A DNA stretch of 64,000 bases from an uncultured Eubacteriales bacterium (GTDB lineage: Bacteria; Bacillota; Clostridia; Peptostreptococcales; Anaerovoracaceae). The notes under the pieces were generated by a model, which saw nothing but the letters and a program-made list of their open reading frames with translations, made no database searches and was not told the DNA's origin. The stretch's first letter is position 1. Each line of letters opens with the position of its first letter. The DNA lies in contig CASDYG010000004.1 of NCBI GenBank assembly GCA_949285555.1, forward strand, positions 93,066 to 157,065, in the 5' to 3' direction. The translations under genes were made by a program, and so were the position numbers. This document shows positions 57,814 through 60,750 of this stretch, piece after piece.

Positions 57814-57840
57814 GGGGCTTTTGCCCCTTTTTTATTTTTA
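57814..57840 (+). terminator. Terminator after trpS
   Basis: GGGGC (57814-57818) pairs with GCCCC (57823-57827) around TTTT. The run TTTTTTATTTTT follows. Confidence 0.8.
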
Positions 57841-57850
57841 AAATATTTTC

Positions 57851-57879
57851 TTGACAATTAAATAATATAGGAATAGAAT
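57851..57879 (+). promoter_or_regulatory. Strong promoter of the lanB remnant
   Basis: A perfect TTGACA (57851-57856), a 17-base spacer and TAGAAT (57874-57879). AAGGAG for the lanB start lies at 57886-57891, so transcription would begin almost at the ribosome binding site. Confidence 0.75.
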
Positions 57880-57899
57880 TTAGTCAAGGAGACAAAGTT

Positions 57900-58262
57900 A
57901 TGAAGTATTCATGTTATGATACATTTATGATAAGGACTCCATCTTTACCGATAAATATATCAGAAGAGTTATTAAAAAAGGATATGGATATTATAGATTA
58001 TATCCAAGAGAAAGGCTTAAAAAGTTTTTTAGATGAGGCACTCTTTTATGTAAATCACAACTTAATAAATAAAATTAGCCATAAGTCTAGCTATGATTTT
58101 AAGTCTACACTATACAAATATATGATACGTTCTTCATCGAGACCTACTCCATACGGTTTATTCGCAGCTGTGGGACTAGGTTTTTTTGATGAAAAAACTA
58201 GTATAATTAGGCATAAAAAGATTGATAAGTATATTCAAATAGATAATACTTATATTAAATAA
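57900..58262 (+). pseudogene. N-terminal fragment of a class I lanthipeptide dehydratase (LanB)
   Basis: This is a 120-residue frame that ends in TAA. The segments FMIRTPSLPI, MIRSSSRPTPYGLFAAVGLGFF and HKKIDKYIQIDNTYI are typical of the first 130 residues of LanB enzymes, which glutamylate and eliminate Ser/Thr of precursor peptides. Complete LanB proteins have about 1000 residues. More than 85 percent is therefore missing, including the glutamylation and elimination active sites. The promoter and ribosome binding site are intact, which suggests recent decay by a 3' deletion. Confidence 0.8.
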
Positions 58263-58384
58263 TATTAATAACAACAACCTTTAATTGTACACATGGAAAA
58301 ATCTGTCAGATGCCAACTAAAAAGGATCCAGCAACATCTTGCCATAAAGTTATAAATAATGATGGTGTTCAGCCAAGGTGCTAA
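58259..58384 (+). other. Orphan frame with lanthipeptide-like Cys/Thr pattern
   Basis: Just behind the lanB fragment an open frame without a start codon encodes 41 residues: ITTTFNCTHGKICQ, then MPTKKDPATSCHKVI, then NNDGVQPRC with a TAA stop. It has four Cys and several preceding Thr/Ser (TFNC, THGKIC, TSC) as in a lanthipeptide core, and the Cys-terminated end would also fit. With no start or leader it cannot be expressed by itself. It may be the 3' end of a deleted precursor gene, the end of another lan gene, or chance. Confidence 0.35.
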
Positions 58385-58446
58385 TTAGAAATATAAATCA
58401 TAAAATAAAGTAGTTACAGTTAGGTTATCGCTGAAAGGAGAATACA

Positions 58447-59340
58447 ATGAATAATGACAAACTGTTAAAACTAAATGTCAAGGTTTTGTTGGGACCATTC
58501 TTAGTTATGCTAATTAGTAGTATAATAGAACCAATAACTAATTCACTAGTAATAACATTTGTTGTTATGGAACTTTTATATGTGATATGTGGTGTGGTCA
58601 TTAAACAAACAAATAAAATATCATGTATGACTAATATAGAATCTTTTAAATCTAGTATAAGATTAGAAACTAGAATCTTGATCTGTCTACTTTTAATTAG
58701 TCTCATGATATTCACTGCATTTATTATACTATCACTTTTACTTTTTGCACATCTTGATACCCATAATTCTAATATAACAGAAGTAAATGATAAAAATATA
58801 GTTGAGATATTGGTTATGAATACAATATTTGCTGGCATATGTGAAGAAATAGCATTTAGATATTGTCTTTTTAGAGAATTAGCAAAATCTAGTATTCTGC
58901 TAGGAATGGTATCAAGTTCAATTATATTCGCAGTATGTCATGCAGGTGTCTTCTCTCCATTTGTGTTTTTGGGAGGATTAGTCTTTGCAGTAATATATAT
59001 GCTAATTGGAAATATCTTTATTAATATTATATTTCATGCAACATATAATTTCGTTTTAATCTCATGCCAATATTATTATGATCAGTTCAATAACCTGATT
59101 CCATTTTATTTATGTGGGATTGTTTCATTAATTTTGATGATTATAGCATATACTTATATATTTTTTAATAAAAGTATGAAAGGGGAGATACGGTTGATAT
59201 GTAAGGAAGTTTGCAACAAAGAGCAAATAAAATTACTAAAGTGGGTATACAAGCAACCACCGATGATAATGATTTTTATAGTATTTACTATTCTTATTTT
59301 GTTTATGAGTATTTTAAACATAAAATTTATGACTAATTAG
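58447..59340 (+). CDS. CPBP family intramembrane protein, copy 1
   Basis: This 297-residue membrane protein of the CPBP/Abi (CAAX protease and bacteriocin-processing) family is complete. The first catalytic motif is CEEIAFRYCLFRELAK near residue 137. The next His is in VCHAGVFSP and the last in IIFHATYNFVLI. About eight helices are predicted. Members near bacteriocin genes give self-immunity. The place between lanthipeptide gene remnants makes this the best guess. The ATG follows GAAAGGAGAATACA. Confidence 0.8.
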   Translation: MNNDKLLKLNVKVLLGPFLVMLISSIIEPITNSLVITFVVMELLYVICGVVIKQTNKISCMTNIESFKSSIRLETRILICLLLISLMIFTAFIILSLLLFAHLDTHNSNITEVNDKNIVEILVMNTIFAGICEEIAFRYCLFRELAKSSILLGMVSSSIIFAVCHAGVFSPFVFLGGLVFAVIYMLIGNIFINIIFHATYNFVLISCQYYYDQFNNLIPFYLCGIVSLILMIIAYTYIFFNKSMKGEIRLICKEVCNKEQIKLLKWVYKQPPMIMIFIVFTILILFMSILNIKFMTN

Positions 59341-59352
59341 TATGATATAAAA

Positions 59353-59384
59353 AATCGGTAGTTTAGTTATATCAATATAAGGAG
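59353..59384 (+). repeat. Upstream repeat, copy before CPBP 2
   Basis: A 32-base segment starting AATCGGTAGTTTAGTTATAT and ending AAGGAG. It matches 60323-60354 with three differences. A more diverged version (GTAGTTACAGTTAGG, ending AAAGGAG) precedes CPBP copy 1 at about 58411-58441. Confidence 0.75.
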
Positions 59385-59403
59385 ATGAAATGGAGGAGGT
59401 AAA

Positions 59404-60289
59404 ATGAATAAGGATAGATTATTAAAACTTAATATTAAGGCAAGTTTCAGTGCTATAGGGATTATAATGTTAGCAGCTATTGTATCACCAATAATTAGCT
59501 TGGCAAAAGGCTCATATGCATTTATGTTTATAGCTATGGAAATTATAATATTAGTATGTGGTTTACTTTTCAAGTGGTCAAATAATCGTAACAACCCAGA
59601 TGTAGTATACTCATTTAGATTTGATGGTAGGAAACTCACTAAAAGTTTAATTTGCATATTTCTCATTAGCTCTATGATAATGATAGGAAGCCTCTTTTCT
59701 TATATTTCCTACGCGCTAAATTTTGATTTTTTAGGATTTCAGCTTGGAAAAGTCGACAGGAATAATATATTTATAGTTCTAGTGGCTTGTTCCATACTAC
59801 CAGGAATTTGCGAAGAAATAACCTTTAGATACTGTTTTTTTAAAGAATTAGCAAAATTCAATATATTATTAGCCTTAGTGTCTAGTTCTATCATATTTTT
59901 AGTATTCCATGTTGGTTTGATGTGTCCATATTATTTTTATACAGGAATAGTTTTTGCAGGATTATATATGATAACTGGTAATTTAGCTACAAATATAATA
60001 TATCATTCCATCTTTAATGGGACAAATATTGTTTTTTATTATTTTAAGCTGGTCAGCTTAAAATTAATATATATACGGGATACTTGGTTTTATAGTACTA
60101 TCAATTACACTTATTTGCATGTGGTGTAACAAAAGTGTGAAAGAAGAAATAAAAAGTTTGTGCAGTAGTCTATTTTCAAAGGAAAATATTAATGTACTAA
60201 AATGGATATATAAGCAACCTCAAATGGTAATAATTATTATTATTTTTCTTATTATGATTGCACTTACAAGCTGGGCACTGCTGGTTTAA
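59404..60289 (+). pseudogene. CPBP family intramembrane protein, copy 2, frameshifted
   Basis: It is a paralog of copy 1: MNKDRLLKLNIKASF against MNNDKLLKLNVKVLL, CEEITFRYCFFKELAK against CEEIAFRYCLFRELAK, and IIYHSIFNGTN near the end. The first frame stops at 60129. The missing C-terminal 70 residues are in another frame from about 60075 to 60289 (GILGFIVLSITLICMW, CNKSVKEEIKSL, VLKWIYKQPQMV), clearly homologous to the end of copy 1. The shift lies near the TATATATAC run at about 60067-60075. The N-terminal 220 residues with all catalytic motifs remain, so a truncated product could still be made. Confidence 0.8.
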
Positions 60290-60322
60290 AATATTTAAAA
60301 TGAGTGAGATATACAAATAGAT

Positions 60323-60354
60323 AATCGGTAGCCTAGTTATATCAATACAAGGAG
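60323..60354 (+). repeat. Upstream repeat, copy before the leader ORF
   Basis: The second copy of the 32-base segment begins AATCGGTAGCCTAGTTATAT and ends AAGGAG. It places an identical ribosome binding site before the short FNLD-box leader at 60361. Confidence 0.75.
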
Positions 60355-60360
60355 GTAAAC

Positions 60361-60429
60361 ATGATTATAAATGATTTTGAACTTAATTTAGTAAAGACTA
60401 ATGAGAAACATGGCAAAAACTTTCTTTAG
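60361..60429 (+). pseudogene. Lanthipeptide precursor leader remnant (FNLD box)
   Basis: A 22-codon frame with an excellent ribosome binding site (AAGGAGGTAAAC) encodes MIINDFELNLVKTNEKHG followed by KNFL and TAG. DFELNLV lines up with the DFNLDLV box of nisin-type leaders, the element recognised by LanB and LanC. The last residues already belong to DNA of the downstream ABC gene read in a wrong frame. The core peptide is therefore lost and the leader is joined by deletion to the transporter gene. Confidence 0.55.
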
Positions 60430-60725
60430 CTAGAGCATTTTACAAAGATGCAGATTTATGCGTGCTTGATGAACCAAATGCTGCACTAGATAATATTGCC
60501 GAAAATAAATTAGCAAAGCTTTATAAAGGCTTATTTAATAATAATATAGGTATTGTAATAGTACATAGATTTAAGAATTTACTAGATAATGTAGACAGAG
60601 TTATTGTAATAAAAGACGGAACAATTGAAAGCGACGGACCAGTTGCATATGTGAAAAAGAATAGTATAGAGTTTAATAGATTATTTACTGAATCCATCTA
60701 TTATAAAAAAGCTACTGAAGAATAA
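60405..60725 (+). pseudogene. C-terminal fragment of an ABC transporter ATPase (LanT- or LanF-like)
   Basis: An open frame without a proper start encodes the end of an ABC ATPase. WQKLSLARAFYKDADL is the tail of the signature (the SGGQ part is missing). CVLDEPNAALD is Walker B with the D-loop, IVIVHRF is the H-loop, and VDRVIVIKDGTIESDG is the usual strand after it. Walker A and any membrane domain are missing. The PNAALD variant is seen in transporters of the LanT type. It is a fragment left by the deletion that removed the precursor core. Confidence 0.8.
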
Positions 60726-60741
60726 CTCCTCAGTAGCTTTT
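60707..60741. terminator. Bidirectional terminator between the lan remnant and hbd
   Basis: AAAAGCTACTGA (60707-60718) and TCAGTAGCTTTT (60730-60741) form a perfect 12-base stem. It has a T-run on one side and an A-run on the other. Confidence 0.85.
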
Positions 60742-60750
60742 AAAATACAT

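Follow-up and report, generated by a model that had tools for sequence, protein, structure and literature searches.

We analyzed a 64,000-nucleotide stretch of DNA from an uncultured Eubacteriales bacterium (hereafter the window) and found that it very probably harbors, judging from its sequence, what is left of a single class I lanthipeptide cluster after at least two deletions. The remnant spans 2.9 kb between two genes which, following the preliminary description of this DNA, we take to be trpS and hbd. Its pieces all lie on the + strand and follow each other, from 5' to 3', as promoter, lanB start, lanA core, CPBP1, CPBP2, lanA leader and lanT end. We favor a single ancestral cluster because this gene order matches that of clusters in Clostridium pascui, Clostridium liquoris, Peptoniphilus faecalis and a genome of the same family designated G823. 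Relatives carry lanB, lanA, CPBP, lanC and lanT together and in the same order, which bears out the earlier proposal of one cluster reduced by at least two deletions. The pieces are the following.

57900..58262, + strand: 5' fragment of lanB, 120 codons and a stop (PF04738, LanB alignments)
58245..58262, + strand: first deletion junction, where lanB runs into a lanA core (approximate)
58259..58384, + strand: 3' part of a lanA core, 41 codons and a stop (LanA comparison with G823)
58447..59340, + strand: CPBP1, a whole CPBP (Rce1-like) protein of 297 amino acids (PF02517, E-value 1.4e-16)
59347..59389, + strand: spacer repeat copy 1, before CPBP2, 84% identical to copy 2
59404..60129, + strand: CPBP2, 241 amino acids (PF02517, E-value 2.8e-15)
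60119..60289, + strand: C-terminal tail of CPBP2, in another frame
60317..60359, + strand: second copy of the spacer repeat, 5' of the lanA leader
60361..60429, + strand: open reading frame of a lanA leader, MIINDFELNLVKTNEKHG, with homology lost at about 60411 (LanA comparison)
60400..60412, + strand: second deletion junction, lanA leader joined to lanT, where leader and LanT homologies meet (approximate)
60411..60725, + strand: 3' fragment of lanT, end of the ATP-binding domain (WQKLSLARAF, DEPNAALD)

The lanB fragment matches PF04738 above the cut-off (E-value 7.8e-12), and its codons 1 to 118-119 align with LanB of C. liquoris. The position of the first junction follows from the LanB alignments, which stop at 58253-58256, and from the core frame, which opens at 58259. 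We asked whether a 17-base near-repeat at 58231 and 60309 marks a deletion and rejected the idea, because the sequence past 58247 diverges from the continuation of the second copy. At the other end of the remnant, the lanT fragment comprises the last ~104 codons of the exporter gene and is 45% identical to residues 495-586 of C. pascui LanT and 50% identical to G823 LanT; what had been described as the end of an ABC ATPase is read here as the 3' end of LanT.

The two lanA halves, which derive from two genes, both resemble genuine LanA peptides, a view supported by sequence comparison. The orphan frame containing Cys and Thr residues that had been described between lanB and CPBP1 is present at 58259-58384, and we read it as a lanA core. 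When this core was compared with the three LanA peptides of G823, which alone support its assignment, its best score was matched in 2 of 5000 shuffles and its summed score in none, and with softer gap costs no shuffle in 5000 reached either value. The residues common to the core and the three G823 peptides are C, T, C, P-T, K, P, S-C, K, Q and R-C-stop, and the four peptides together define the pattern C-x3-5-C-x-[VM]PT ... P-x-x-SC-[HY]K ... Q-x-RC at the end. By a composition rule that was set after the core had been seen, 3 of 576 segments of at least 38 codons in the window are core-like, the core itself included. The leader reaches scores against four Clostridium and Peptoniphilus LanA peptides that are equaled in 18 of 2000 shuffles (best) and 2 of 2000 (sum), and is weaker against the three G823 peptides (88 and 14 of 5000, respectively). 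The nisin-like leader described earlier exists as an open reading frame at 60361, with a motif that reads DFELNLV and not FNLD.

CPBP1 and CPBP2 both score above the PF02517 cut-off and hold the EExxxR, FxxxH and HxxxN motifs of the family, in CPBP1 as EEIAFR, FAVCH and HATYN. CPBP2 is a paralogue of CPBP1 (39% identity) with a frameshift near residues 205-220 and with its catalytic motif residues kept; of the two CPBP proteins described previously, both are present and the first is intact, the second being frameshifted near its end. Repeats of 225 and 43 bases, 969-970 bases apart and 70% and 84% identical (window positions 58825-60359), suggest that CPBP1 and its spacer were duplicated in tandem long ago, which gave rise to CPBP2 and the spacer behind it. 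A role of CPBP proteins in immunity is presumed, and Kjos et al. 2010 is reportedly the usual source for it. A search of PDB sequences returned nothing at an E-value of 0.01; the sole PADLOC match (CsaX for CPBP1, E-value 0.0072) was taken as chance, and an AlphaFold model of CPBP1 was poor (mean pLDDT 50.8) and was set aside.

The remnant is framed by the following elements, all on the + strand.

57814..57833, + strand: terminator 3' of trpS, a stem at 57814-57827 followed by a T run (pattern scan)
57851..57879, + strand: sigma-70 type promoter, TTGACA-17-TAGAAT (promoter scan)
57886-57891, + strand: ribosome site AAGGAG (read from the sequence)
60707..60741, + strand: terminator-like stem separating the lanT fragment from hbd, 12 outer pairs

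The preliminary description had placed an intact promoter before the lanB N-terminus and terminators on both sides of an island of fragments confined to one strand and 2.9 kb, and all of these were recovered. Of the 34 promoter-like sites in the scanned stretch, this promoter ranks first and is the sole 11/12 match. The downstream stem was absent from the terminators listed by the pattern scan; it has a z-score of -7.05, and none of 200 shuffles was equally stable. The hbd gene runs convergently toward the 3' border of the island. The G+C content of the island is 25-29%, as against 31-37% in the flanks shown. An Rfam scan gave no match at the gathering score, and the phage collection held no DNA match to the island.

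The clusters of relatives reveal what the remnant may once have contained. The C. pascui locus (L035) comprises lanB (1029 amino acids), lanA, CPBP, two flavin reductase-like genes, lanC, a TraX-like gene and lanT, the reductase and TraX labels having been carried over by eye from protein scans of P. faecalis and C. liquoris. It and the C. liquoris locus (L034) share the order of the remnant, with lanB first, then lanA, CPBP and lanC, and lanT last; unlike in the remnant, every cluster gene of C. pascui is whole. C. liquoris has a LytTR regulator and a histidine kinase upstream, and C. pascui has open reading frames that resemble them by eye, whereas none occurs between trpS and the lanB fragment in the window. 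The P. faecalis locus (L051) has a lanB remnant, lanA, CPBP, lanA, CPBP, a reductase, CPBP, lanC and a lanT that is cut off by the contig end. In G823 (L086), lanB is followed by three lanA genes, each with an S41 peptidase gene after it, and by lanC and lanT. This cluster resembles the remnant in its LanA core pattern and LanT end, but has S41 peptidases instead of CPBP proteins and occupies another site, beside genes that we take to be pfl-like.

Several of these loci show features of their own. The lanB gene of C. liquoris (L034:10001-13108) carries an in-frame stop after codon 739, and its cluster may for that reason be decaying too. Past lanT in C. pascui (L070:9271-10244, - strand), two open reading frames together resemble, by eye, a broken CPBP gene. 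The S41 peptidases of G823 measure 652-654 amino acids (L086:3099-10226, - strand), no CPBP-motif gene is labelled in that stretch, and the peptidases may process the leaders or protect the cell. In Peptoniphilus lacrimalis (L049:13032-13385), a lanA leader (MNKYEDFDLDMK) is in frame with a CPBP-like start inside which the contig ends; in a single comparison, this start matched the C. liquoris CPBP with an E-value of 1e-6.

The lanB fragment matched 1 of 247 genomes of the family, its own, where it is the single LanB match; G823 came only with the later search of the order, in which LanB scored above the cut-off in 9 of 393 genomes, its own included. The fifth match of a separate search (G194), which overlaps a long open reading frame on the other strand, was taken as chance, as were the five matches of the order search below the curated cut-off, in G449, G519, G559, G586 and G852, beside which no lanthipeptide genes were recognized. 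LanB was found in 4 of 14 genomes in a search of the genus Peptoniphilus, all four being broken loci (L048, L049, L051 and L052), and LanC (PF05147) in none of five genomes of the window's own genus, its own included. Viral contigs held no relative of the lanB fragment, a single-protein query that reaches close relatives only; in plasmids, LanB relatives occurred in 28 records, none of them reaching 60% identity, and CPBP gave a single weak match. The distribution of LanB and LanC in the order, family and genus and the low G+C content of the island point to a cluster that was probably gained by horizontal transfer and later decayed. None of the four congeners has trpS and hbd side by side; the two genes are on separate contigs and in other surroundings. 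Three of these genomes have a tRNA-Arg gene directly after trpS, whose best match in the window's own genome is elsewhere (92% over 65 bases), among other neighbors; the island may have displaced it.

Under the favored reading, a cluster ordered lanB - lanA1 - CPBP1 - CPBP2 - lanA2 - (lanC and others) - lanT would have arrived by horizontal transfer and then decayed. One deletion would have run from about codon 118 of lanB into the core of lanA1, and the other from the leader of lanA2 into the end of lanT. CPBP1, which has all its catalytic motif residues, should be transcribed from the promoter that remains before lanB. Production and export of the peptide should be impossible, since lanB, lanT and both lanA genes are truncated and no LanC was found in a genome that is 90% complete. 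The remnant can be regarded as a well-preserved ruin of a known kind, a class I lanthipeptide cluster, whose lost peptide was probably antibacterial. The preliminary description went further and proposed that production had been lost and protection retained: its premise holds, the synthesis and export genes being cut and CPBP1 whole, whereas retained protection is one possibility, as neutral drift over a short time would also leave CPBP1 whole. That CPBP1 protects the cell against the lost peptide, or against its kin made by neighbors, is a hypothesis and not a finding, which we put forward tentatively and hold to be somewhat short of probable.

A number of observations weigh against the favored reading. 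An intact locus between trpS and hbd, which had been suggested as a check, was found in none of the genomes examined, intact clusters lying at other sites. Shuffles of the core reached its best score against Clostridium and Peptoniphilus LanA peptides in 1882 of 2000 cases and its summed score in 1440 of 2000; in LanA profile searches of the window in six frames, the leader ranked eighth or ninth (E-values 2.4 and 4.7) and the core was absent among the matches listed. CPBP1 shares 18-24% identity with the CPBP proteins of relatives, five of which were compared, and its match to the C. liquoris protein is at chance level (E-value 0.16); lanC could lie in the missing part of the draft. The intactness of CPBP1 is moreover uninformative on protection, because neutral drift keeps useless fragments whole about as often. 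The lanB, lanT and core fragments are free of stops, as is CPBP1, and so were all five fragments tested. In neutral simulations (1000 runs each), CPBP1 stayed free of stops in 61% of runs at 2% change and the lanB and lanT fragments in 68%, and in 33% and 42%, respectively, at 5% change. These results, together with the frameshift already present in the paralogue CPBP2, agree with pure wreckage, in which the deletions are recent, selection plays no part and CPBP1 is whole for lack of time; this reading shares its anatomy with the favored one and differs on CPBP1, and it is a serious possibility that we rate a little below an even chance. It accounts less readily for the whole CPBP genes at three more decayed loci (L048, L051 and L052) and for purifying selection on the CPBP gene common to two of them. 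An assembly artefact, with parts of separate clusters wrongly fused or sequence lost from the contig, is very improbable: the window does come from a 1.45-Mb draft genome in 16 contigs, but contamination is given as 0.12, ancestral order and strand are kept across two junctions, and terminator-like stems occupy both flanks.

The decayed sister loci serve as natural experiments, in which the production genes are gone and useful genes may stay whole, and they offer a direct test of whether CPBP genes are lantibiotic immunity genes. Like the remnant, the four Peptoniphilus loci all have a broken lanB, and three of them retain a whole CPBP gene, the fourth (L049) running off its contig; they differ in their neighborhoods and in their CPBP proteins, four of which were compared and show 19-24% identity to CPBP1. 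Across the five decayed loci, the window included, lanB is whole in none, while six of seven assessable CPBP frames are whole (one of two in the window, one in L048, three in L051 and one in L052), a count that proves little alone because a CPBP gene is a third as long as lanB, by which the loci were found. Loci L048 and L051 share one neighborhood but have decayed to different degrees, and their lanB genes are broken at different places. Their common CPBP gene shows 25.8 synonymous and 32.2 other changes, giving a ratio of nonsynonymous to synonymous change (pN/pS) of 0.31, below that of all 2000 neutral simulations, 1940 of which carried an internal stop. Their common lanB remnant shows 3 and 10 changes and a neutral-like pN/pS of 0.86, although these 13 changes are few, a significant difference between the two ratios is not established and some of the changes may be older than the loss. 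At the nucleotide level, 58 of 873 sites differ in the CPBP gene and 13 of 191 in the lanB remnant, so that the former is not the better conserved by this measure, and the housekeeping neighbors have lower nonsynonymous and mostly higher synonymous divergence. The signal of selection on a leftover CPBP gene is limited to this one Peptoniphilus pair; because this gene is under purifying selection beside a dead lanB in both genomes, protection by CPBP1 in the window is plausible.

A selected CPBP gene could also process the peptide or help to export it, as proposed for the CAAX protease SilX, in which case the leftover copy would not be an immunity gene. According to the SilX study, deletion of the protease abolishes bacteriocin activity and not immunity (PMC9298176), and another report mentions that certain clusters for class III lanthipeptides contain a CAAX family protease (PMC7268733). 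Also in favor of this reading, the LanT of C. liquoris, the sole LanT scanned, shows no C39 peptidase domain. Constraint on the L048 CPBP, at a locus where no lanA, lanC or lanT was recognized, speaks against such a role. So does the distribution of protection genes in the 17 loci examined, reduced to 13 clusters by setting aside the window, L048 and L052 (remnants) and L093 (a repeat of L042). A CPBP-motif gene occurs in seven of these (L028, L034, L035, L051, L092, L094 and L095), the protection ABC ATPase TIGR03740 scores above the cut-off in three (L040, L042 and L044), and three have neither; the two never occur together, for which chance gives about 0.07, calculated by hand on a small sample. 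The TIGR03740 scan covered six short ABC proteins, four of them positive and two of these from one genome; it left out a 250-amino-acid ABC protein of L051, and the L044 protein lies beside a second, partial lanB. Genes may be missed because the stretches end within ~10 kb. No protection transporter was seen past lanT in C. pascui and C. liquoris, in lists of open reading frames inspected by eye and unscanned. We consider a role in processing or export unlikely.

A broader proposal can be made, in which CPBP intramembrane proteases replace LanFEG as self-protection in a non-nisin clostridial branch of class I clusters and outlive production, several anaerobic Firmicutes lineages having lost lanB, lanC and lanT yet keeping CPBP under selection against producing neighbors. 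As a whole, this proposal is speculative and rather doubtful. Among the matches listed in a search of open-licence literature, limited to titles and the openings of abstracts, we found no decayed CPBP-bearing class I clusters and no Peptoniphilus LanB remnants. The remnant and G823 together provide a gene order and a core pattern with which intact producers can be sought.

The situation proposed here has counterparts in better-known systems. Two pneumococcal papers describe CAAX proteases as putative immunity genes and report that BlpY is needed for both immunity and activity (PMC4860687, PMC4517551). In about 9% of Lactococcus lactis strains, nisRK-FEG occurs without the synthesis genes, an example of immunity genes without nisin production (PMC7965974). 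These strains and the pneumococcal blp 'cheaters' have lost production and kept protection genes (PMC7965974, PMC4517551), which is the outcome suggested for CPBP1; their phenotypes were measured or reported, whereas the remnant is known from its sequence.

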